Of a stretch of 13,950 bases of DNA, positions 1 to 13,849 are shown in pieces. Each line of letters opens with the position of its first letter. The first letter of the stretch is position 1. Where the stretch lies: assembly GCA_003599475.1 (NCBI GenBank), contig QZKK01000111.1, positions 1 to 13,950 on the forward strand, read 5' to 3'. The notes under the pieces are model-generated. The model did no database searches and had not been told where the DNA came from. It saw only the letters and a program-made list of their open reading frames with translations. The position numbers and the translations under genes are program-made. This DNA is from Desulfobacteraceae bacterium. GTDB taxonomy: Bacteria > Desulfobacterota > Desulfobacteria > Desulfobacterales > SURF-15.

Positions 1-1004
1 TGAACATCGAGTGCGATCAATGCGGCCTGCGGCGCGGAAGCGTCGATCCCTTTCTTTCTCATGCGGTCTTCGAGCTGCAAAAGCCCTTCGGCCACCGCCT
101 CTTCGGCCGCCTCCTGCATGCGGTAGGAAAGTGAGGTCGTCACCGCAAGCCCCTCGCGATAAAGCGGGGCCGATCCGATGACCGACTCAAGCTCCGGTTT
201 GATGTATTCCACGAAATAAGGGGCTTTGACCGGGCTTTTCCGCCGGTCCGCCGGCTGGACCGGTTCTTCCAAGGCATTCCGGTATGCATTTTCATCGATG
301 AGATCGTTTTTTCGCATCTGAAGCAGAACGGTGTTTCTGCGCTTCATCGCCAGGTCCGGATTGACAAGCGGCGAATACCGGGAAGGGGCCTTGGGCGTTC
401 CGGAAATCAGCGCGCACTCGGAAAGCGTCAACTCCCTGACCGTTTTTCCGAAAAAGATGCGGGCGGCCGACTCCACCCCGTATGCACCGCTTCCGAAGTA
501 GACCTGGTTCAAATAGAACTCAAGGATCTCCTTTTTCGTGTATCGCCTCTCCAACTGGAAAGATAAGAAAGCTTCCTTGAGCTTCCTTGCCAATGTCTTT
601 TGCGGGGTGAGAAAAAAAGTCTTGGCCAACTGCTGCGTGATGGTGCTCGCCCCCTCGGCATATCCTCCGGCCAATAAATTTTTGACCACGGCCCGGACGA
701 TGCCTCTGACGTCGACGCCGCTGTGGCTGTAAAAACTCTGGTCTTCGGTTGCGACGATTCCGGCTTTGAGAAACTCCGGAATCTCATCGAGCGGGACCGG
801 ATCCCGTTTCTCGGCGAAAAGCTCGGCAAGGAGCACTCTGTCCGCCGAATAGATCCGGCTGATGGCAGAGGGTTTGAAGTTCTCCAGCGCCTGGATTTCC
901 GGCAAATCGGAAGTCAGGGCGATAAAAACACCCGCCCCCGCCCCCACGATAACAGCGGCCATGAGCAGAACCGCGGTTAGAATCATTTTTCGGCTTCGGA
1001 TCAT
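1..1004 (-). CDS. mrcA: Penicillin-binding protein 1A-type peptidoglycan glycosyltransferase/transpeptidase, N-terminal part
   Basis: Bifunctional cell-wall synthase anchored in the inner membrane; only the first 334 codons are in the window and the gene continues past base 1. Seen: a short basic N-terminus, one membrane anchor at about residues 7-30, then a GT51 transglycosylase domain with EDQSFYSHSG (catalytic Glu87), GASTITQQLAK (118-128) and EFYLNQVYFG (162-171). The link toward the transpeptidase domain reaches ALIALDV at the window edge; the transpeptidase SxxK motif is not in view. The ATG at 1004 gives a standard anchor and the right distance to the GT51 motifs. No Shine-Dalgarno sequence precedes it, because the 20-30 bases upstream are a heptanucleotide repeat array. 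An internal ATG at 986 is an alternative start, also without a clear ribosome site. The gene lies 135 bp downstream of ggt on the same strand and may be cotranscribed with it. The family call is firm; 1A rather than another class A PBP is inferred from motif style. Confidence 0.9.
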   Translation of the reverse strand, partial: MIRSRKMILTAVLLMAAVIVGAGAGVFIALTSDLPEIQALENFKPSAISRIYSADRVLLAELFAEKRDPVPLDEIPEFLKAGIVATEDQSFYSHSGVDVRGIVRAVVKNLLAGGYAEGASTITQQLAKTFFLTPQKTLARKLKEAFLSFQLERRYTKKEILEFYLNQVYFGSGAYGVESAARIFFGKTVRELTLSECALISGTPKAPSRYSPLVNPDLAMKRRNTVLLQMRKNDLIDENAYRNALEEPVQPADRRKSPVKAPYFVEYIKPELESVIGSAPLYREGLAVTTSLSYRMQEAAEEAVAEGLLQLEDRMRKKGIDASAPQAALIALDV

Positions 1005-1044
1005 GAGAATGTCCAATGCAGAATGTAGAATTTCCAATGATCAA
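1003..1044 (-). repeat. Heptanucleotide tandem array, TTGGACA/TTCTACA type, copy 1
   Basis: Read on the minus strand, about six consecutive 7-bp units begin with TT or an obvious variant; units include TTGGAAA, TTCTACA, TTCTGCA and TTGGACA. The array touches the start codon of the penicillin-binding protein gene and occupies the place where its ribosome-binding site should be. The same family occurs on the opposite strand at 1221-1262 inside ggt, so the two copies are inverted relative to each other. Confidence 0.8.
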
Positions 1045-1110
1045 GTGTCGGGGGCATAGGGCGTAGCGTAGAGGGAAAGAAGATTAGAAGTTGAGAAGAT
1101 TTGAGGGTAT

Positions 1111-1139: not shown

Positions 1140-2774
1140 TCAATACCCGACCGCGCATCCGTCTTTCCGATGATCGGAACCCGAAACGTAGAAACCGCCT
1201 CCCCCCCCAGTCTCTTTTCCTTGGAAATTGGACATTGGACATTCTACATTGGACATTCTATAGATGAGCTGTGCGCCCCCGAAGAGCGATTCCGACTGGC
1301 CGGTGACGATGATGTGACCGCGCTCGGAGAGCCCCTGCAGAACTTCCGGCGCAAAGCCGGGCTCCACCGCGACCCGGTTGTCCTCCGTCATCAGATGCCA
1401 TCTCGGGGCATCGGAGGCGGTCTGTGGGTTTTGGCCATAGTCGAAAATGCGAACCATCATTTGAACATGCCCCTGGGCCTGCATATGCCCCCCCATCACC
1501 CCGAAGCTCATGACCGGAGATCCGTTGCGGCTGACAAACCCCGGTATGATGGTATGGTATGGACGCTTGCCGCCTTCGACCTGGTTGGGATGTCCCTTTT
1601 CCAAGGTGAATCCGTAGCCGCGGTTTTGCATGCTGATCCCCGTTCCGGGGACAACAACCCCGGAGCCGAATCCCATGTAATTAGACTGGATGAAGGAAAC
1701 CATCACGCCATCCGCATCGGCGGCCGTAAGGTAGACGGTACCCCCGTCCGCCGCAATACCGGTGTCCGGAAACTGTGCTCTTTTCATGTCGATCGTTTCG
1801 GCACGGCGCTTCAGATAATCGGTATTCAGCAGCTCCGCAGCGTCGAGTCGCATATGGTCGGGGTCTGCAAGGTGCCGTTTGATGTCGGCAAACGCAAGCT
1901 TCATGGCCTCGATCTGAAGGTGCAGCGAATCGACCGAATCGACCGGGTAAGCCGAAAGATCGAAATTCGAAAGCATCGACAGCGTCATCAGAGAGGCGAT
2001 CCCCTGTCCGTTTGGCGGGATCTCATGCAGCGTGTAGCCCCGGTAATCCTGGGATAAAAGATCGACCCAGTCCAGTCGGTGATTCGCCAGATCATCGGCA
2101 GTCATTGCCCCACCCTGCCCCTCTGCGGACGCTGCAATCCTTTCAGCCAGTTCTCCGAGGTAAAAAGATTCGCCCTTGGATGCGGCGATCTTTTCCAGCG
2201 TCTTTGCCTGATCGGGGCAGCGAAACCACTGGCCAGGCTCCGGTGCACGGCCGGAGGGGAGAAATGTTTTGTGAAAATCGAAAAAATCCTTGTAGACTCT
2301 CTGGGCGGCCGCCCACCGGATGGCGGTGATCGGGGAGACGGCAAAACCGTCTGAAGCGTATTCGATCGCCGGGGCAAACAGCGCATCGAACGGAAGGCGT
2401 CCGAAACTCCGGGATAACTCCACCCATACGGATACCGCCCCAGGCACCGTCACGCTTTCCCAACCGTACATCGGCATCGTCGCACGGTCAGAAAACCGTT
2501 CCAAGGACCATCGCCGGGGAGAGCGGCCGGAACCGTTTACTCCATGCAGCCGCTTGCCGTCCCAGACGATGGCAAACCCATCGCTGCCGATGCCGTTGCT
2601 GGTAGGCTCTACCACTGTCAAGGCAATGGCGGAGGCGATTGCGGCGTCGACGGCGTTGCCCCCTTTCAACAGCATCCGGATGCCCGCAAGCGTCGCAAGG
2701 GGCTGAGATGCAGCAACCACGTTTTTTGCCATCACAGGCATCCGCTGCGATCGATAGGGAAAATCCCACTTCAT
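1140..2774 (-). CDS. ggt: Gamma-glutamyltransferase, cytoplasmic YwrD-like type, with a repeat-derived insertion near its C-terminus
   Basis: N-terminal-nucleophile hydrolase/transferase that cleaves gamma-glutamyl bonds, for example in glutathione. The 544 residues show GGNAVDAAIA (38-47), EPTSNGIGSDGFA (56-68), the processing-site region GGTVYLTAADADG (344-356) with Thr346 as the expected nucleophile exposed by self-cleavage after Gly345, QSNYMGFGSG (363-372), GGKRPYHTIIPGF (401-413) and a C-terminal GSDHRKDGCAVGY. No signal peptide is visible, so a cytoplasmic location is likely, as in the YwrD branch. The start at 2774 has an AGGAG ribosome site at 2782-2786, seven bases upstream. Odd: between GGAQLIYR and FYVSGSDHRK lie about 20 residues (507-527) encoded by a TTGGACA-type heptad array and a G-rich tract. 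In relatives I expect only a few residues there. The frame stays open to the normal end, so the protein is probably still made; its activity is unknown. Confidence 0.93.
   Translation of the reverse strand: MKWDFPYRSQRMPVMAKNVVAASQPLATLAGIRMLLKGGNAVDAAIASAIALTVVEPTSNGIGSDGFAIVWDGKRLHGVNGSGRSPRRWSLERFSDRATMPMYGWESVTVPGAVSVWVELSRSFGRLPFDALFAPAIEYASDGFAVSPITAIRWAAAQRVYKDFFDFHKTFLPSGRAPEPGQWFRCPDQAKTLEKIAASKGESFYLGELAERIAASAEGQGGAMTADDLANHRLDWVDLLSQDYRGYTLHEIPPNGQGIASLMTLSMLSNFDLSAYPVDSVDSLHLQIEAMKLAFADIKRHLADPDHMRLDAAELLNTDYLKRRAETIDMKRAQFPDTGIAADGGTVYLTAADADGVMVSFIQSNYMGFGSGVVVPGTGISMQNRGYGFTLEKGHPNQVEGGKRPYHTIIPGFVSRNGSPVMSFGVMGGHMQAQGHVQMMVRIFDYGQNPQTASDAPRWHLMTEDNRVAVEPGFAPEVLQGLSERGHIIVTGQSESLFGGAQLIYRMSNVECPMSNFQGKETGGGGGFYVSGSDHRKDGCAVGY
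1194..1262 (-). repeat. Heptanucleotide array, copy 2, plus a G-tract, inside the ggt reading frame
   Basis: On the plus strand at 1221-1262 six perfect 7-bp steps occur; distinct units are TTGGAAA, TTGGACA (three times), TTCTACA and TTCTATA. The 42-bp array is a multiple of three, so it does not shift the ggt frame and is translated on the minus strand as MSNVECPMSNFQ-like sequence. It is followed in the coding direction by a run of eight G (1201-1208) encoding a glycine stretch. The inserted block separates two well-conserved parts of the gamma-glutamyltransferase C-terminus. Confidence 0.85.
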
Positions 2775-2903: not shown

Positions 2904-3024
2904 GCGCGAAGCTGAAAGCTCAAAGCGCGAAGACATCGAAAATTCGTTTCTCTTTGCGTCTTGGCGGCTTTGCGTGAGAAGAGCGTATGAAGATCCGGTT
3001 TTCTTTCAGCTTCGCACTTTCAGC
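2904..3024. repeat. Cluster of three heptanucleotide arrays downstream of the sigma-54 activator gene
   Basis: Four 7-bp units at 2904-2931 (GCGCGAA twice, GCTGAAA, GCTCAAA); a second array at 2952-2979 containing CTTTGCG, TCTTGGC, GGCTTTG and CGTGAGA; and a third at 3004-3024 with TTTCAGC twice around TTCGCAC. The first and third are reverse complements over 14 bp with one mismatch (2904-2917 against 3004-3017), so the RNA could form a long-range stem with the middle array in the loop. The third array reaches to within a few bases of the stop codon of the leftward sigma-54 activator gene. No other gene is seen between 2775 and 3028. Confidence 0.65.
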
Positions 3025-3028
3025 TTCT

Positions 3029-5512: not shown

Positions 5513-5581
5513 AGGTGGAGGCCGTCTTTCCACCCCGATGCGCAGCCAATGAATCTCCCATCCAGGTTGAAAAACAGATGA
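5513..5581 (+). promoter_or_regulatory. narG translation-initiation region with hairpin and two overlapping mini-ORFs
   Basis: A strong ribosome-binding sequence AGGTGGAGG (5513-5521) is not placed for narG. Its GGTGGA (5514-5519) can pair with TCCACC (5529-5534) across a nine-base loop. It is followed by ATG at 5538 opening a four-codon ORF (MRSQ) whose TGA overlaps the ATG at 5549. That ATG opens a ten-codon ORF (MNLPSRLKNR) whose TGA overlaps the ATG of narG at 5578. The result is a chain of two ATGA junctions in three different frames. Translation of the mini-ORFs is unproven; the 16-base gap from the strong site to the first ATG is longer than usual. Confidence 0.4.
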
Positions 5582-8500
5582 ACCCTATCCGATATTTGAA
5601 TCGTGATTCGCTTCGATTTTTCGAGCGGCGGCCGGAAAAGAACGGCTGCCGCCCCGAAAAGATTTCCCAAGACTGGGCGGAGATCCGCTGCGGCGGAAGG
5701 AGCTGGGAGGATTACTACCGCAGAAGGTGGCAATTCGACAAAGTCGTCCGCTCCACACATGGGGTCAACTGCACCGGATCCTGCTCATGGGATGTTTATG
5801 TCAAGGATGGAATCATCGTCTTCGACACGCAGAAGACCGACTATCCGGGACTCGGTCCTGACATGCCGGATCATGAGCCCCGCGGTTGTCCGAGGGGCGC
5901 CTCCTACACCTGGTACACCTACAGCCCGATCCGGGTCAGATTTCCCTATATCCGCTCGGTGCTCCTGAAGTTGTGGAGAGAGGCGCTCGCAGCGCATGCA
6001 GACCCGGTCGAAGCCTGGAAAAGCATCGCGGAGGATCCCGAAAAGGTGAAACGTTATCGCCGGGCCCGGGGAAAAGGCGGCCTGGTCCGTACCACCTGGG
6101 AAGAATCATCCACCCTGATTGCCGCCTCACTGGTCTACACCATTAAAAGATACGGACCGGACCGCGTCTTCGGTTTCACCCCCATTCCCGCCATGTCCAT
6201 GGTCTGCTACGCCTCGGGTGCGCGGTTCCTCTCCCTGATCGGCGCTTCGATGATCAGCTTCTACGACTGGTACTGCGATCTGCCTCCGGCCTCTCCCCAG
6301 ATCTGGGGAGAACAGACCGACGTCCCGGAGAGTGCGGATTGGTACAATGCTTCTTACATGATCGTCTGGGGTACCAATCTGCCGATGACCCGCAGCCCCG
6401 ATGCGCACTTTTATACCGAATCGCGCTACCGGGGGGCGAGGGTGACCGCCGTCGCACCGGATTACGCCGAATATGTCAAATTCGCCGACACCTGGCTGCC
6501 GGCAAAAGCCGGAACCGATGCCGCTCTCGCCATGGCTATGACCCGGGTGGTGCTTAAGGAGTATTATATCGAGCGAAAGGTCGATTATTTTACCGGGTAT
6601 GCGAAAAAGTTCACCGATCTTCCTTTTCTCGTGATCCTGGACCGCAACGGCGACCGGTATGTGCCCGGAAGATTTCTGAGGGCCTCCGATCTTTCCTTCG
6701 AGATCAACAATTCCCAATGGAAAACGGCGGTATACGATACGCTTTCGAAAAAACCGGCAATTCCGAACGGGAGCATCGGCTTCCGATGGAACGAAAAGGG
6801 TAGATGGAACCTGAACCCGGAAGACGCAATCGGCGGGAAAACGATCGACCCGCTGCTCAGCTTCGCAGACGAGGCTGACACATGGGTGAGGACGGACTTC
6901 CCCCTGTTCGAGGTGCAGGGACCCGCCGTCAAATCCGGGCATGTTCCCGCCAAACGAATCCGGTCAAACGGCGGCGACTTCCTGGTTGCCACCGTCTTCG
7001 ATCTGATGGCGGCCAACCTCGGCTTATCGAACGGGCCGGAGGCTTTCGCCCGAGACCTTCCGGAAAGCGATGCGGAGTCGACCCCCTACACTCCCGCCTG
7101 GCAGGAGAGAATCACCGGTGTCCCGGCCGAAGACTGCATCCGTGTCGCCCGGGAGTTTGCGGACAACGCGGAAAAGACCCGGGGGAAATCGATGATTTTT
7201 CTCGGGGCGGGCACCAATCATTGGTACCACAGCGACATGACCTACCGCGCCATTTTGAACCTGACGACGCTGTGCGGCTGCCAGGGGGTAAACGGCGGCG
7301 GCTGGGCCCACTACGTCGGTCAGGAGAAAGTCCGGCCGCTTGCCGGGTGGGCGGCCCTGGCTTTCGGACTGGACTGGCTCCGTCCTCCCCGGCAGCAGAA
7401 CGGGACTTCCTTCTACTATTTTGCAAGCGACCAGTGGAGATACGAATCGTTCAGCGCAAAGCATATCGCCTCCCCGGTTTCCCCCTCCTTTGAAGACAGG
7501 CACCTTGCCGATTACAACGTCATCGCGGCGCGGCTCGGATGGCTGCCGTTCTATCCACAATTCGACCGGAACCCGCTTTCGCTCTGCCGGGAGGCGGTTA
7601 CGGCAGGCGCTGCATCCGATGCCGAGATCGTCTCCAATACCCTGAATCGGGTAAAGGACGGCGAGGTTTCCTTTGCCGTCGAAGACCCGGACAGCCCCGA
7701 AAACTACCCCCGGGTTCTGTTTCTGTGGCGCGCCAATCTGCTGGGAGCAAGCGGCAAGGGTCATGAGTATTTCCTGAAGCATCTGCTGGGGGTGGAAAGT
7801 GCCTCCTTCAATGGAGACGGGACGCTCCGCCCCGGCGAGATCCGGTGGCGGGAGGCACCGGAAGGAAAGCTCGATCTGCTGGTAACCTCGGAACTGCGCA
7901 TGTCGACCAGCGCCTTGTATGCGGATGTCGTTCTTCCGGCCGCAGGCTGGTATGAAATGCACGATATCAGCAGCACCGACATGCACACCTTCATCCACCC
8001 CTTCAACCCGGCGATCGACCCCCCCTGGGAGACCAGAACCAACTGGGATCAATTCAAAGCCGTCGCTGAAAAGTTTTCGATCCTTGCCGAAGGGCATCTC
8101 GGAAAGGAAAAGGATCTCGTTTCGGTACCGCTGTACCACGACACCCCGGCAGAAATCGCGCAGCCGACGGTGCTGGACTGGAAGAAGGGGGAAACCGAAC
8201 CGATACCCGGCAAAACGTTTCCGAACCTGATCGTCGTCGAGCGGGACTATCCCCATGTCTATGAGATGATGACGGCTTTGGGGCCGCTGCTTTCAAAATC
8301 AGGAATCGGCGCCAAGGGGATCTCCTGGAAGGCGGAAGAAGAATACGAGGAACTGAAAAAACGCCTGGGAACGGTCACAGAGCCCGGTTTGACCCGGGGG
8401 ATGCCTTCGATCGCATCGGGGAGGCAGGCGGCCGAGGCCATCCTTGCGCTCTCTCCGGAAACCAACTCGGAAACCGCGCGCAAATCCTGGCGGGGACTGG

Positions 8501-9282
8501 AGGAGCTGACGGGAATCGACCTTTCCGAGCTGAGAAGGCTTGCCGGAACCGAGAAGATGACCTTTGCATCGATTACGGCACGGCCGCAGAGAGCGGTTAC
8601 CTCCCCCATCTGGAGCGGCATCGAATCCGAACATCTGCCGTATGCCCCTTTTGTCATCAATACCAAGTACAACATCCCATTCCGCACCCTGACCGGAAGA
8701 GCCCAGTTCTACCAGGACCATGAATGGATGCGGATGTTCGGAGAAAGTCTTCCGGTCTACCGCCCGCCCCTCGATATGCAGGCGCTCGGCTCGACCGAGG
8801 TCTCCCGCGAGCCCGGAAGGGAGCTGATCTTAAACTACCTGACCCCCCATTCGAAATGGTCGATCCACAGCTCTTATTCGGATACGCTGATCATGCTGAC
8901 CCTCTTTCGGGGCGGCGAGGCCATCTGGCTAAACGATCGGGACGCATCAAGCATCGGAATCCTGGATAACGACTGGGTGGAATGCTTCAATGTAAACGGC
9001 CTGGTGATGGCCAAAGCGGTCGTCAGTCATCGGATCCCCCCGGGCAAGGCTTTTATGTACCATGCCCAGGAGCGGCTGATCAACACTCCGGGTTCGAAGC
9101 GCTCCGGCCAGCGGGGCGGAACTCACAACAGCGTTACCCGGATCTGGGTCAAACCCACCCAGATGATCGGCGGCTACGCGCAGTTGAGCTACGGATTCAA
9201 CTACTACGGGCCTATCGGCGCACAGCGCGATGAGGTGGTCATCGTGCGGAAGGCGGGTGAGGTGGACTGGTATGAGGATTAA
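5578..9282 (+). CDS. narG: Respiratory nitrate reductase alpha subunit NarG
   Basis: Catalytic subunit of the membrane-bound, cytoplasm-facing nitrate reductase: reduces nitrate to nitrite at a molybdenum bis-guanine-dinucleotide centre. From the ATG at 5578 the protein has 1234 residues, close to the roughly 1247 of the E. coli protein, and aligns along its whole length. The FS0 cluster ligands are intact: His61, Cys65 and Cys69 in HGVNCTGSC, and Cys104 in HEPRGCPRGASY. The molybdenum ligand Asp234 is present in FYDWYCDLPPASPQ. The C-terminal cofactor-binding half is conserved (GGIHNSVTR-like GGTHNSVTR, then GGYAQLSYGFNYYG). No Tat signal is visible, which fits the cytoplasmic NarG class rather than the outward-facing archaeal type. 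An upstream in-frame GTG at 5515 exists but has no ribosome site and would add 21 poorly conserved residues. The 3' end overlaps narH by 11 bp. Confidence 0.97.
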   Translation: MNPIRYLNRDSLRFFERRPEKNGCRPEKISQDWAEIRCGGRSWEDYYRRRWQFDKVVRSTHGVNCTGSCSWDVYVKDGIIVFDTQKTDYPGLGPDMPDHEPRGCPRGASYTWYTYSPIRVRFPYIRSVLLKLWREALAAHADPVEAWKSIAEDPEKVKRYRRARGKGGLVRTTWEESSTLIAASLVYTIKRYGPDRVFGFTPIPAMSMVCYASGARFLSLIGASMISFYDWYCDLPPASPQIWGEQTDVPESADWYNASYMIVWGTNLPMTRSPDAHFYTESRYRGARVTAVAPDYAEYVKFADTWLPAKAGTDAALAMAMTRVVLKEYYIERKVDYFTGYAKKFTDLPFLVILDRNGDRYVPGRFLRASDLSFEINNSQWKTAVYDTLSKKPAIPNGSIGFRWNEKGRWNLNPEDAIGGKTIDPLLSFADEADTWVRTDFPLFEVQGPAVKSGHVPAKRIRSNGGDFLVATVFDLMAANLGLSNGPEAFARDLPESDAESTPYTPAWQERITGVPAEDCIRVAREFADNAEKTRGKSMIFLGAGTNHWYHSDMTYRAILNLTTLCGCQGVNGGGWAHYVGQEKVRPLAGWAALAFGLDWLRPPRQQNGTSFYYFASDQWRYESFSAKHIASPVSPSFEDRHLADYNVIAARLGWLPFYPQFDRNPLSLCREAVTAGAASDAEIVSNTLNRVKDGEVSFAVEDPDSPENYPRVLFLWRANLLGASGKGHEYFLKHLLGVESASFNGDGTLRPGEIRWREAPEGKLDLLVTSELRMSTSALYADVVLPAAGWYEMHDISSTDMHTFIHPFNPAIDPPWETRTNWDQFKAVAEKFSILAEGHLGKEKDLVSVPLYHDTPAEIAQPTVLDWKKGETEPIPGKTFPNLIVVERDYPHVYEMMTALGPLLSKSGIGAKGISWKAEEEYEELKKRLGTVTEPGLTRGMPSIASGRQAAEAILALSPETNSETARKSWRGLEELTGIDLSELRRLAGTEKMTFASITARPQRAVTSPIWSGIESEHLPYAPFVINTKYNIPFRTLTGRAQFYQDHEWMRMFGESLPVYRPPLDMQALGSTEVSREPGRELILNYLTPHSKWSIHSSYSDTLIMLTLFRGGEAIWLNDRDASSIGILDNDWVECFNVNGLVMAKAVVSHRIPPGKAFMYHAQERLINTPGSKRSGQRGGTHNSVTRIWVKPTQMIGGYAQLSYGFNYYGPIGAQRDEVVIVRKAGEVDWYED

Positions 9283-10705
9283 GCTGCAAACGGCAATGGT
9301 GATGAATCTCGACAAATGCATCGGGTGCCACACCTGCAGCATTCCGTGCAAGAACGTATGGACCAATCGTGCAGGCGCAGAGTACATATGGTACAACAAC
9401 GTGGAGAGCAAACCGGGCATCGGATATCCCAAGCGCTGGGAAAACCAGGAAGTCCACCGGGGAGGATGGAGCGGGGAAAACGGGCGTCTTTCCTTGAAGG
9501 CCGGGGGGAGGATGCACAAACTTCTCAACATCTTCCACAACCCCGATCAGACGGCCATAGACGATTACTACGAACCCTGGACCTACGACTATAAAAAGCT
9601 TTTTACCAGCTCGCCCAGAAAACACCAGCCCTCCATCCGCCCGATCTCCCAGATCACGGGAAAAAACATGCGCGTCACCTGGGGGCCGAACTGGGAGGAC
9701 GATCTGGCCGGCGTCAGCGAGACCGGAAGCCAGGACGTCAACTTCGAGGGTCTCGACCCGACCGCCCTTCTCCAGTTTCAAAAAGTCTTCCTGTTCTATC
9801 TTCCCCGCATCTGCGAGCACTGCTTAAACCCGGCCTGTGTGGCGTCATGCCCCTCCGGAGCCCTCTATAAAAGAGACGAGGACGGCATCGTGCTCGTGGA
9901 TCAGGAGCGGTGCCGGGGATGGCGATTCTGCACATCCGGCTGCCCGTACAAAAAAGTCTACTACAACTGGAAGACCGGAAGGTCGGAAAAATGCCTGATG
10001 TGCTATCCCCGGGTGGAAGCCGGAATGCCCACACTCTGCTCGCTGTCCTGCGTCGGCAGGATCCGGTACATCGGGGTCCTGCTCTACGATGCCGAGCGCA
10101 TCCGGTCGGCCGCCTCCGTATCCGATAACCGGCAGGTGTATGCCGCCCATTGCGACATCCTGCTCAACCCGCATGACCCGGAAGTCGCCCGGGAAGCCCG
10201 GATGGCAGGAATTTCCGATCGTCATATCGCAGCCGCCAAGGCATCCCCGGTATATAGGCTGATCAAGGAATGGAGGCTTGCCCTTCCACCGCATCCGGAG
10301 TTTAGAACGCTTCCCATGGTATGGTACATACCTCCGTTGAGCCCGGTCACACAGGCGGCAGATGGGGAGGAGCCTCTCGATCGGACGATCGACCGCATGC
10401 GGATTCCGGTCAGATACCTCGCCAACCTTTTTTCGGCAGGCGATGAGGCGCCGGTTCGATTCGCCCTCAGGCGGCTTGCGGCCCTTCGTACGTATATGCG
10501 TTCGGTGCGGGTCGATGGGAGTCCGGACTTGAAAGCGCTCGATGAGGCGGAGATGACCGAGCCGATGGCCGAGCAGATGTACCGGCTCCTTGCCGTGGCC
10601 AAGTATCCGGACCGGTATGTGATTCCTACCGTGAGCAGGGAAGCGGCAAGCGATCACCAGACCGACCGGGGGACGGTCGGCTACCCCTTGAGAGATCCCA
10701 AATGA
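9272..10705 (+). CDS. narH: Respiratory nitrate reductase beta subunit NarH (iron-sulphur)
   Basis: Electron-transfer subunit that wires NarI haem to NarG through four Fe-S clusters. The 477 residues carry the expected cysteine groups: Cys16/19/22/26 (CIGCHTCSIPC), Cys181/184/189/193 (CEHCLNPACVASC), Cys214/220/224 with Trp217 in place of a cysteine (CRGWRFCTSGC), and Cys241/244/256/260 (CLMCYPRV...LCSLSC). The Trp substitution is the known mark of the [3Fe-4S] cluster in NarH. The start at 9272 matches family N-termini (MRIKLQTAMVMNLDKC) and is preceded by GAGGTGG; the longer frame opening at 9230 is not conserved. The C-terminal tail is about 35 residues shorter than in E. coli NarH (512), in a region without cluster ligands. 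Confidence 0.97.
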   Translation: MRIKLQTAMVMNLDKCIGCHTCSIPCKNVWTNRAGAEYIWYNNVESKPGIGYPKRWENQEVHRGGWSGENGRLSLKAGGRMHKLLNIFHNPDQTAIDDYYEPWTYDYKKLFTSSPRKHQPSIRPISQITGKNMRVTWGPNWEDDLAGVSETGSQDVNFEGLDPTALLQFQKVFLFYLPRICEHCLNPACVASCPSGALYKRDEDGIVLVDQERCRGWRFCTSGCPYKKVYYNWKTGRSEKCLMCYPRVEAGMPTLCSLSCVGRIRYIGVLLYDAERIRSAASVSDNRQVYAAHCDILLNPHDPEVAREARMAGISDRHIAAAKASPVYRLIKEWRLALPPHPEFRTLPMVWYIPPLSPVTQAADGEEPLDRTIDRMRIPVRYLANLFSAGDEAPVRFALRRLAALRTYMRSVRVDGSPDLKALDEAEMTEPMAEQMYRLLAVAKYPDRYVIPTVSREAASDHQTDRGTVGYPLRDPK

Positions 10706-10715
10706 TAAAAGCAAA

Positions 10716-11261
10716 ATGATGAAAAAAGGATGGATGGAAGAAAACCGCCGGACACTTCAGATCGTATCGATTCTGCTTCAGTACCCCGATGACGCGCTCG
10801 GGAGCCCGCTGCGGGAAATCGAACGGAGCGTCTCTACCCTGGACGATGCGGTTCTGCGGGAAAAAATCGAACTCTTCCTGCGCTTTGCCCGGGGTGCCCC
10901 GCTGCTTGATCTCCAGGAGGCTTATACGGCCGCTTTCGATCTGGACCCTAAAGCCGGTCTCTACATGACCTATCCTCTTTTTGAAAAGGAGGTGGAGCGG
11001 TCTCAGGCGCTGGTCGGACTCTGCCGTTTTTACCGCAGCGAGGGGTACGAGCCGTACCCTGGGGAGCTGCCCGACTTTCTTCCGCTGATCCTGGAGTTTC
11101 TCTCCGTCTGCAGCCCTCCGGCGTTCGATTCGCTCGTCGGTTTGTGCAGGACTCCGGTCGAGGCTTTGACAGCGCATTTGAAAGAAATCGAGCACCCGTA
11201 TGCCGGTCTCCTCGAAATCGTCTCGAAACTGTTCAACGAACCATCCGATGGGGGTTCATAG
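10716..11261 (+). CDS. narJ: Nitrate reductase molybdenum-cofactor assembly chaperone NarJ
   Basis: Cytoplasmic TorD/NarJ-family chaperone that binds NarG during cofactor insertion and membrane attachment; not part of the final enzyme. The 181 residues keep the family core: LLQYPDD (20-26), LQEAYTAAFDL (about 66-76) and ELPDFLPLILEFLS (about 117-130). It is shorter than E. coli NarJ (about 236), mostly at the C-terminus, as in many non-enteric forms. The start is uncertain: ATG at 10716 or 10719 has no clear ribosome site, whereas ATG at 10734 (residue 7) follows AAAAAAGGA closely. It lies 10 bp after narH and 3 bp before narI, in the standard narGHJI order. Confidence 0.93.
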   Translation: MMKKGWMEENRRTLQIVSILLQYPDDALGSPLREIERSVSTLDDAVLREKIELFLRFARGAPLLDLQEAYTAAFDLDPKAGLYMTYPLFEKEVERSQALVGLCRFYRSEGYEPYPGELPDFLPLILEFLSVCSPPAFDSLVGLCRTPVEALTAHLKEIEHPYAGLLEIVSKLFNEPSDGGS

Positions 11262-11264
11262 TCG

Positions 11265-11957
11265 ATGCAGACTTGGAACACATTGGCCTATCTCGTATTC
11301 CCGTATATCGCACTGACGATTTTTGTAGTCGGACACATCTACCGGTATCGGAAAGATCCCTTCAGATGGAACGCCAAGTCGAGCGAGCTTCTGGAGAAAG
11401 AAAGCCTCCGGTACGGCTCGACCATATTCCATTGGGGGATTCTTCTGACCCTGCTCGGCCATGCGGGCGGTCTTCTGATCCCGCAGAGCATCTTTGATGT
11501 CTTCGGCATCGATGCCGGCGCACATACCCTGATCGCCTTCTATTCAGGAATTTTTATCGGCTTTGCCGCATTCATCGGATCCGCTCTCCTCCTTTATCGA
11601 CGCTACAGGTTGCCGAGAATACGGGTGACGACCTCCACAAGCGACTTTATCGCCCTGGCGCTTCTCTTCTTTACGGCCGGAATCGGTTTGTTCAATGTCT
11701 TCAGACACTATAATGTCCTCTACACCATCGCCCCCTGGATCCGAAGCATCGTCTTCCTCCATCCGGAACCCGAATTGATGACCGAAGTGCCGAGCGGCTT
11801 CAAAATCCATATCCTCAGTGCGTTTCTCCTTTTCGCCTATTCTCCCTTCAGCCGTCTGATCCATATCTGGAGCGCCCCTTTCGGGTACATGGTCCGGAAC
11901 TACATCGTTTTTAGAAAATACGGCGGCGTTTCAAGCGAAAACTATGGAAAAGAATAG
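11265..11957 (+). CDS. narI: Nitrate reductase gamma subunit NarI (cytochrome b)
   Basis: Integral membrane di-haem cytochrome b that oxidises quinol and passes electrons to NarH. The 230 residues contain five membrane helices (about 6-26, 52-72, 88-111, 124-147, 180-202). All four haem-ligand histidines are found: His56 and His66 in FHWGILLTLLGH, the same numbers as in E. coli, and His182 and His200 in KIHILSAFLLFAYSPFSRLIH. The C-terminal FSRLIHIWSAP is a strong family signature. The stop lies inside the first codons of the downstream transporter gene (14-bp overlap), which points to translational coupling. Confidence 0.96.
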   Translation: MQTWNTLAYLVFPYIALTIFVVGHIYRYRKDPFRWNAKSSELLEKESLRYGSTIFHWGILLTLLGHAGGLLIPQSIFDVFGIDAGAHTLIAFYSGIFIGFAAFIGSALLLYRRYRLPRIRVTTSTSDFIALALLFFTAGIGLFNVFRHYNVLYTIAPWIRSIVFLHPEPELMTEVPSGFKIHILSAFLLFAYSPFSRLIHIWSAPFGYMVRNYIVFRKYGGVSSENYGKE

Positions 11958-13044
11958 ACCGAATATTGCCGATTCCATTTCTTCGGCTGTCGCCGGTCTG
12001 CCGCCCGCCTATTTTGCGCTGGTGATGGCAACCGGCATCGTCTCCATCGCATCGCATCTTTTCGGCTACGCCTTCATTGCCATACCGCTTTTCTGGATGA
12101 ACGTCGTCTTCTATCTCCTCCTGTGGGCGATGACCCTGGCAAGGGTTCTGCTGCATACCGGCCGGTTTTTCGACGACTTGAGCAATCACTCGGTCGGCGT
12201 CGGTTTTTTTACGGTGGTGGCAGGCTCCTGCGTGCTCGGCAACCAATTCGTCCTGATCCTCCATTCATTCGGCATCGCCGGGATCCTGTTGGGAATCGGA
12301 TTTTTCCTGTGGGCTTTTCTGATCTATTTCATTTTCACCCTGTTTACGGTCAAATCCGTGAAACCGCCGCTTGAAACCGGAATCAACGGCGTCTGGCTGG
12401 TTTCCATCGTGGCCACGCAGTCGGTATCGATTCTGGCCGGCCTGGTGGTGCCGGGTTTCAGCGCCTATGGAGATCTGCTGCTCTTTTTTTCCTTCTGCAT
12501 GTTTCTGATCGGAGGCATGCTCTATCTTCTGGTCATCATGCTGATTTTCTACCGTTTCATGTTCTTTACACTCAAGCCGGAAGCACTCGGCCCCCCCTAC
12601 TGGATCAACATGGGAGCCGTTGCCATATCGACCCTTGCGGGCGCGACCCTGATTCTCAACAGCCAAAGATTCGCTCTGCTGGAGACCCTGTCCTCGTTTA
12701 TCCTGGGGGTGACCCTTTTCTTCTGGTCGGCTGCGACCTGGTGGATCCCCTTTCTTCTTCTGCTGGGGGCATGGCGCTATCTGGTGCGGAGAGTCAAGTT
12801 CGTATACGAACCCCAATACTGGGGCATGGTCTTTCCGCTCGGCATGTATACGGTATGCACGTTTCGACTTGCACAGGTGGTCGATTTGAATCTTCTGGTG
12901 GAAATACCGAGATATTTTATCTTCGCGGCCCTTGCGGCATGGGGATTTACCTTTGCCGGTCTGCTCAGGCACATATTGGGACCCGTTTTTGGAACCCGCG
13001 GCGCAGGCGATCGGGAGTCGAATCGAAAGGATGCCGGCGGGTAA
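11944..13044 (+). CDS. TehA/SLAC1 (TDT) family anion channel or transporter, candidate nitrate/nitrite conduit
   Basis: Membrane protein of 366 residues with about ten hydrophobic helices (roughly 19-39, 44-66, 86-107, 110-134, 148-168, 176-205, 221-240, 250-278, 290-312, 321-345), the number known for the TehA/SLAC1 fold. Typical stretches are PPAYFALVMATGIVSIA (20-36), PPYWINMGAVAISTLAG (217-233) and YWGMVFPLGMYTVCTF (292-307). Family members are usually annotated tellurite-resistance/C4-dicarboxylate transporters; plant SLAC1 relatives conduct nitrate and chloride. The start codon lies within the end of narI with a 14-bp overlap, so it is the fifth gene of the nar operon. No narK-type carrier is in the window. 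A role in nitrate uptake or nitrite export is my inference from context; substrate and direction cannot be read from sequence. Confidence 0.88.
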   Translation: MEKNRPNIADSISSAVAGLPPAYFALVMATGIVSIASHLFGYAFIAIPLFWMNVVFYLLLWAMTLARVLLHTGRFFDDLSNHSVGVGFFTVVAGSCVLGNQFVLILHSFGIAGILLGIGFFLWAFLIYFIFTLFTVKSVKPPLETGINGVWLVSIVATQSVSILAGLVVPGFSAYGDLLLFFSFCMFLIGGMLYLLVIMLIFYRFMFFTLKPEALGPPYWINMGAVAISTLAGATLILNSQRFALLETLSSFILGVTLFFWSAATWWIPFLLLLGAWRYLVRRVKFVYEPQYWGMVFPLGMYTVCTFRLAQVVDLNLLVEIPRYFIFAALAAWGFTFAGLLRHILGPVFGTRGAGDRESNRKDAGG

Positions 13045-13102: not shown

Positions 13103-13849
13103 TCAATGCAGCTTTATGTACACATACCCGCCGCTTCGGTATCCAAACGGCCTGAAAACATGATTGTAGTCGCTTGCAAGTCCTTTGTAAAAAGTATCGA
13201 AACGGACTCTGTACGGCTTTTCCTGCTGCGGATCCACATCCAGAAGGATGACTTCTCCGGTATGCGGATCGAATCCTCCTACGGGTGAAATGTGCGGGAT
13301 ATTCAAGGTCGGAACGTATGCCCCCTGGTCGAAGTGGGCGATGATCAGGCAGTTTCCCTTTTTTTCAAAGTCATTGAGCCTCCGCCGGAGCACTTCTTTG
13401 ATCGTTTTCGAGTGGCGCGGGTCTTTTTGTGCCTGGACTGTTTCAACGGCTGCATAACCGATTCCGTATTGATCGAGACTGCTTGTAACCACCTCTCCAA
13501 GGACCGGAAGCGGAAGCCCGCGTCTTCCTTTATGCCCTTTTTCGCTCATTCTCTCCTTCCAGAAGGCGGTCCTTACCGTCTCGAGAATATCCATCTGGGT
13601 GATCGGTGCGGCATCGGCGCCCCGGAGGGCGTTTACCACCGAAACCACGGTGGCGACCGAGCAGGACGATTCGTGAAACTGCTTCACGTGGTGCTTCCAA
13701 AGACCCGCTTTGAGCGGATTGCCGCCTGCCGGAACCGGCCCGTCCACGTCCTCGGCCCTGCAGGGGCCGAATGAACCGCTTCGGGTCACCTTATGGAAGA
13801 CAAACGGAAGGTAAAGAATTGTATGAATGAAAACTCTCCGAAGATTCAT
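13103..13849 (-). CDS. Phytochelatin synthase-like papain-fold peptidase/transferase
   Basis: Protein of 248 residues resembling the catalytic domain of phytochelatin synthase (a papain-fold gamma-glutamylcysteine dipeptidyl transpeptidase). The expected catalytic set is visible: Cys63 in QFHESSCSVATVVSVVNAL, His186 in PHISPVGGFD and Asp204 in VILLDVDP. The His-Asp spacing of 18 equals that of the Arabidopsis enzyme (His162, Asp180), and VNALRG after the cysteine and SPVGGF after the histidine are family features. Bacterial members are single-domain and mostly remove glycine from glutathione, making little phytochelatin, so hydrolase activity is more likely than metal-chelator synthesis. The N-terminus has a short hydrophobic stretch (about 7-18) after MNLRR, which may be a weak membrane anchor or signal. 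The start at 13849 has GGAGA ten bases upstream, and there is no in-frame ATG further up. The gene is convergent with the nar operon. Confidence 0.8.
   Translation of the reverse strand: MNLRRVFIHTILYLPFVFHKVTRSGSFGPCRAEDVDGPVPAGGNPLKAGLWKHHVKQFHESSCSVATVVSVVNALRGADAAPITQMDILETVRTAFWKERMSEKGHKGRRGLPLPVLGEVVTSSLDQYGIGYAAVETVQAQKDPRHSKTIKEVLRRRLNDFEKKGNCLIIAHFDQGAYVPTLNIPHISPVGGFDPHTGEVILLDVDPQQEKPYRVRFDTFYKGLASDYNHVFRPFGYRSGGYVYIKLH

Follow-up and report, generated by a model that had tools for sequence, protein, structure and literature searches.

How does a tandem repeat with a seven-base unit come to be read as part of a conserved enzyme? The question is raised by a gene for a gamma-glutamyltransferase family protein in the stretch of DNA analysed here (the window, 13,950 nucleotides), where three features matter first.

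Positions 1140 to 2774, minus strand: ggt, gamma-glutamyltransferase family protein, an open reading frame of 544 amino acids in which residues 507-527 are the insert.
Positions 1221 to 1262, plus strand: heptad array of six consecutive units, TTGGAAA-TTGGACA-TTGGACA-TTCTACA-TTGGACA-TTCTATA.
Positions 1197 to 1220, minus strand: purine/G-rich stretch GGAAAAGAGACTGGGGGGGGAGGC, read as GKETGGGG, the remainder of the insert.

The ggt product matches PF01019 with an E-value of 1.4e-148 (496.4 bits against a gathering score of 27) and falls just under the cut-off of the NCBIfam equivalog TIGR00066 (349.6 bits, cut-off 357.85). The threonine of its G-T-V-Y-L block, T346, is invariant across 100 aligned sequences and is presumably the nucleophile. 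Elsewhere in the window, respiratory nitrate reductase genes (narGHJI) lie at 5515-11957, followed by a SLAC1/Tdt-type transporter at 11944-13044 and a phytochelatin-synthase-like protein at 13103-13849 (PF05023, E 3.2e-9).

Residues 507-527 of the ggt product (MSNVECPMSNFQGKETGGGGG) stand in place of a turn that is usually three residues long (MDD and similar). Linker lengths were counted in the best 120 of 8000 scored homologues, where the spacing from GGAQ to [ST]DxRKDG was 12 residues in 107, 13 in nine and 17 in three; it is 30 in the window protein and 28 in P0001, the longest among those 120. The sequence-only reading had expected the flanking blocks to be nearly adjacent in the family, as the spacing of 12-13 in 116 of the best 120 of 8000 bears out, and had predicted a gap of about 20 residues at 507-527, to which the measured gain of 18 over the usual 12 comes close. 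P0001 is the only one of these 120 homologues with an insert of comparable length at the turn; the other 119 have none. A slightly different linker distance, taken at 85 genome loci (80 + 4 + 1, with L085 and L002 both from genome G001), was 15 at 66 loci, 16 at four and 19 at six, with eight mis-scored by the motif and one not found; on this scale the window protein would sit at about 33 (15 + 18). A search with ggt residues 494-544 returned P0001 as the sole match among 96 candidates, a search of limited reach in that it required shared five-residue words.

The fold around the insert is predicted well (mean pLDDT 91, pTM 0.92), and the best solved structure matched by the model is the cephalosporin acylase 2nlz (Foldseek TM 0.91, 48% identity). 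Strands 501-507 and 528-533 of the model flank the insert, which sits at the turn linking the last two long beta strands. Within it the model has a short helix at 513-516, and residues 517-523 fall below pLDDT 50. Mapping 507-527 on a structure had been proposed as a check for a surface loop; it gives a low-confidence loop in the hairpin turn of an otherwise well-predicted fold, and the turn would presumably lie on the protein surface.

The array accounts for part of the insert. Read on the minus strand, 1221-1262 is ggt codons 505-518 (YRMSNVECPMSNFQ), and its 42 bp begin exactly at codon 505 and keep the ggt frame, just as had been claimed for six 7-bp units plus a G-rich tract inside the gene. 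Period-7 self-identity from position 1221 is 27 over 35 positions, the maximum of the whole window and a score reached by none of 1000 first-order Markov sequences, the largest of which scored 24. The pattern TTGGACATTGGACA has nine matches in the window at up to three mismatches (five in the ggt array, three in a second array at 1010-1044 and one elsewhere); across 200 shuffles the average was 1.06 and the count always stayed below nine. At the protein level a period-7 test picks out the insert peptide, with a score of 41 that 0 of 40 shuffles equalled. In gene sense the array opens with the heptad TATAGAA, which coincides in part with the conserved Y-R codons, and the array is therefore only partly new sequence; the new residues beyond its share are supplied by the purine/G-rich stretch at 1197-1220. 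On the plus strand that stretch is a pyrimidine leader ending in TTTTCC ahead of the first TTGG. No Rfam family matched at gathering scores, and the viral contigs searched had no exact match to a 23-bp heptad pattern. Two other short heptad runs, GACCTCC at 1113-1132 just 3' of ggt and AGTGTTC at 2793-2812 just 5' of it, place heptads in both flanking intergenic regions.

Arrays of the same kind are dispersed in other genomes. Relatives of the regulator neighbouring ggt led to the order of G403, in which 85 genomes were scanned; of these, 33 encode a strong match to the regulator and 27 have at least one match to a 21-bp heptad pattern (up to three mismatches). Several genomes, G446 (28 vs 11) and G441 (15 vs 11) among them, also match a reversed control, and for this reason the clear excesses alone were counted: 52 matches vs 1 for the control in G465, 66 vs 0 in G473 and 20 vs 2 in G458. 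Among 16 genomes of more distant ggt relatives, an 18-bp pattern had one match in each of four, which is the control level. Arrays in G473 are mostly of TTGAACA variants. Those of G465, an assumed relative only, whose regulator is 70% identical to that of the window, carry the window variants TTGGACA, TTCTACA and TTGGAAA, often with a pyrimidine leader before the first TTGG. Units and leader of the window array thus match a dispersed TTGGACA family that is defined from G465, and the excess of this family over the reversed pattern is the one counted in G465.

Placement in G465 was read from codon-usage gene calls at 24 loci around pattern matches, with 27 arrays; three of the loci (L187, L188 and L193) have no array by a stricter rule. 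These loci were used for the orientation count because an unbiased sample of G465, three whole contigs (753,604 bases), contained only nine arrays. The arrays lie mostly between genes, which agrees with the earlier claim that a repeat of intergenic type has entered a coding region. They are also strongly oriented. On the side that matches the ggt body, a gene 3' end lies within 60 bp of 11 arrays and is overlapped by three more; on the opposite side the numbers are one and zero, a bias of 14 vs 1 among the 27 arrays (binomial p 0.001). Of the 14 genes concerned, ten have Pfam support, two have no hit and two fell outside the test. Near 5' ends there are three arrays on one side and one on the other, and four arrays overlap genes in other ways, one of these being also among the 11. 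The ggt array has the usual orientation of the family, yet 81 bp of gene, stop included, still follow it. Two G465 arrays read in frame as the C-terminal tails of Pfam-supported genes:

L201, positions 5751-5785: array forming the tail of a glycosyltransferase ending INVQCPITNVQYPREEGK.
L198, positions 5802-5829: array forming the tail of a DUF1848 protein ending MSNIQCRMSK.

Not one of the 27 arrays in G465 has conserved blocks of a gene on both sides, which makes the position of the ggt array unusual even by the standard of this family. An open reading frame of 844 amino acids over the L199 arrays (P0241) is probably spurious, having been dropped by the codon-usage gene calls. By eye, an octamer-based palindrome, GCCACCAAGACACAAAG...CTTTGTGTCTTCGTGGC, stands directly or slightly upstream of nine of the 23 displayed G465 arrays (L186-L209); where such arrays adjoin gene 3' ends, the result is a composite of two repeat kinds.

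We consider it probable that ggt acquired a dispersed heptad array at a turn that tolerates it, and that the array is translated there as filler. A mostly intergenic element of the TTGGACA family, which occurs as single arrays or divergent inverted pairs, would have reached the 3' end of ggt, and its translation would lengthen the turn in the last beta hairpin by 18 residues. The DNA may have arrived by insertion, or by template switching primed by array-like native sequence at the Y-R-M codons. Three features would explain why it was kept: a unit free of stops, an added length divisible by three, and a turn that can vary in length. Whichever of the three frames is used, the pure heptad gives LDIGHWT from one strand and CPMSNVQ from the other, and no frame contains a stop. 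The TTCTACA variant holds a TAG on the gene strand, and frame therefore still matters for real arrays. Adding or removing one or two units in silico replaced the conserved ggt C-terminus, and three units restored it. On this reading the insert-bearing protein would be made and active, tolerance of the insert near the C-terminus is plausible, and the insert would have no function of its own.

The nearest relative complicates this account. Outside the insert, P0001 is 97% identical to the window ggt product (17 differences in 523), and the C-terminal block past the insert differs by one residue, which indicates that translation crosses the insert and that this block seems still to be under selection. 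The regulators are closer still, with 496 of 498 residues (99.6%) identical between the window and P0121, which probably shares one contig of 42,598 bases with P0001. At the same turn P0001 has TDGRGDGRSGSHPKGGSEV, a non-heptad segment 16 residues above the usual length that has no sequence in common with the window version. A heptad origin for it was considered at the protein level and rejected: its best possible period-7 score was 26 of 50, which 54 of 60 shuffled peptides matched. Periods 5, 6 and 8-12 did not stand out either (matched by 11 to 60 of 60 shuffles). The presence of the same segment in close relatives had been named as evidence against an inserted repeat. P0001 does have an insert at the same point, but its sequence differs and is not built of heptads. 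Different inserts in ggt products 97% identical mean that the turn was rewritten or hit twice: either a common ancestor already had the longer turn, whose sequence was later replaced, or the turn was hit on two occasions.

P0001 thus counts against a landed array to the extent that the ggt turn may have been long before the heptads. Local growth, in which the array was built by slippage within an already lengthened turn, starting from a native stretch that resembles an array (TATAGAATG, at the Y-R-M codons), would draw on just this, P0001 having a long turn without heptads, and on the overlap of the first heptad with the conserved Y-R codons. We think it unlikely, since a shared source is indicated both by the agreement of four unit variants and the pyrimidine leader with the dispersed G465 arrays and by a second array of this family 176 bp away.

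This second array and the gene that it adjoins are the following.

Positions 1006 to 1045, minus strand: inverted partner array, 83% complementary to 1220-1259 over 40 nt, with 174 nt between the two.
Positions 3 to 1004, minus strand: penicillin-binding-protein (transglycosylase) gene, cut off by the window edge; translated from the ATG at 1004, it matches PF00912 with an E-value of 6.7e-67.

A listed open reading frame, 3-1037, starts at a TTG at 1037 and reads through the partner array; the ATG at 1004 is the likelier start of the gene, and the partner arm stops one nucleotide short of it. This arrangement raises cis-regulatory pairing: in a shared transcript the two arrays would base-pair into a stem, which the ribosomes on ggt would open, coupling the two genes. 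The complementarity of the arms, the position of the second arm just before the likely start codon and the fold of the 286-nt sense RNA (z -2.99, two of 200 shuffles as good, both arms paired) speak for it, and MacGregor (PMC4679880) suggests that heptamers near start codons have a role in translation. Pairing alone is no sign of function, however, as any two oppositely oriented arrays of a family will pair by construction. Taken singly, the arrays show no folding (z -0.80 and 0.77), the P0001 insert has no heptad signal, and the coupling presupposes a putative co-transcription of ggt and the penicillin-binding-protein gene. We hold this coupling to be highly improbable. Inverted pairs also recur in the family: eight of 12 arrays at five G458 loci make four divergent pairs with spacers of 17-22 bp, those in G465 are spaced 20 and 170 bp apart, and tight pairs, one from each genome, fold strongly (z -4.08 and -5.28). 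A further inverted pair in the window, 2908-2933 with 3002-3027 (26 nt, 77% complementary, 68 nt apart), occupies the intergenic region that separates ggt from the sigma-54 regulator, and 8-base repeats resembling CTTTGCGT stand between its arms.

An assembly artefact (a misjoin at repeats) or a decaying ggt pseudogene is a shade more improbable again. Repeats are prone to misassembly and the segment lies near the C-terminus, but the 42-bp array is in frame with conserved sequence on either side, the reading frame is intact across 544 codons, and the same position in P0001, on its contig of 42.6 kb, is likewise occupied by an in-frame insert. That the insert is a conserved functional part of the fold is scarcely credible, given that nothing was found for it except the insert of P0001, that the two versions share no sequence, that 119 of the best 120 of 8000 homologues do without it and that model confidence there is low.

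The array landed in the ggt turn can be set beside known systems, each compared here from excerpts of the published description. Geobacter metallireducens has heptanucleotide (GGACCGG) elements and paired tandem octa- and heptanucleotide sites on opposite strands (PMC2700814). Both have short heptamers in tandem, inside genes as well as between them, and array pairs on opposite strands at variable distance; the units differ, the Geobacter repeats are interpreted as regulatory elements or regulator binding sites, and an enzyme loop is not among the features described in those excerpts. The window pair shows the layout of such opposite-strand tandem arrays, a likeness of layout only, as the units differ. 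The TAACTGA direct repeats of marine Beggiatoaceae (PMC4679880) are also mostly intergenic, with some in open reading frames, mainly near protein ends, and are translatable in one orientation. The window unit is TTGGACA with its variants, however, and its pure form has no stop in any frame, whereas the forward reading of TAACTGA has stops; in addition, the Beggiatoaceae repeats are mostly upstream of start codons, in contrast to the bias of G465 arrays to gene 3' ends.

Kinship with Rickettsia palindromic elements, suggested by the sequence-only reading, found no support when the two were compared by description. These elements are likewise dispersed repeats placed in frame within protein-coding genes, but they are about 150 bp long with an open reading frame for a conserved peptide (PMC10969869, in excerpt), whereas the ggt insert is a 42-bp tandem array whose peptide is merely the heptad reading, and a single array does not fold. 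Xanthomonas GGGAATC and Nostoc G-rich heptamers are also mostly intergenic (89% and 93% in two Xanthomonas) with a minority inside open reading frames, but their unit is of the G-quadruplex type (PMC4692102, in excerpt). Repeats within open reading frames of Borgs similarly add disordered segments without breaking the frame; all their units are divisible by three, whereas the window array has a 7-bp unit and reaches a multiple of three only over its full length (PMC9879509, in excerpt). Literature searches with 14-15-base strings did not find a TTGGACA-type unit, such sequences being seldom given in running text. The inverted partner at 1006-1045, the different insert of P0001, the 3'-end orientation of the family and the unit free of stops in all frames go beyond what had been noticed from the sequence alone.

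A bolder idea is that the last hairpin turn of GGT is a recurrent site of landing or rewriting, where repeat-derived DNA diversifies one enzyme loop. Its basis is that two organisms with regulators 99.6% identical have entirely different in-frame inserts there, almost the same in length. Gain or loss of one heptad would then switch the C-terminal reading frame, because the unit is 7 bp, and would perhaps alter pairing with the leader of the next gene. This we rate as distinctly unlikely, below local growth and above pairing.

With precedents in Geobacter, Beggiatoaceae and Rickettsia, the translated heptad in ggt is a new example of a known phenomenon, not a new system. It illustrates clearly how a tandem repeat that usually lies between genes, and whose unit is not a triplet, can be read as part of a conserved enzyme. 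A pure unit that is free of stops and gives the same peptide cycle in every frame is a possible reason why such heptads are tolerated, and the bias of orientation that G465 arrays show towards gene 3' ends gives a way into the question of how the arrays spread.
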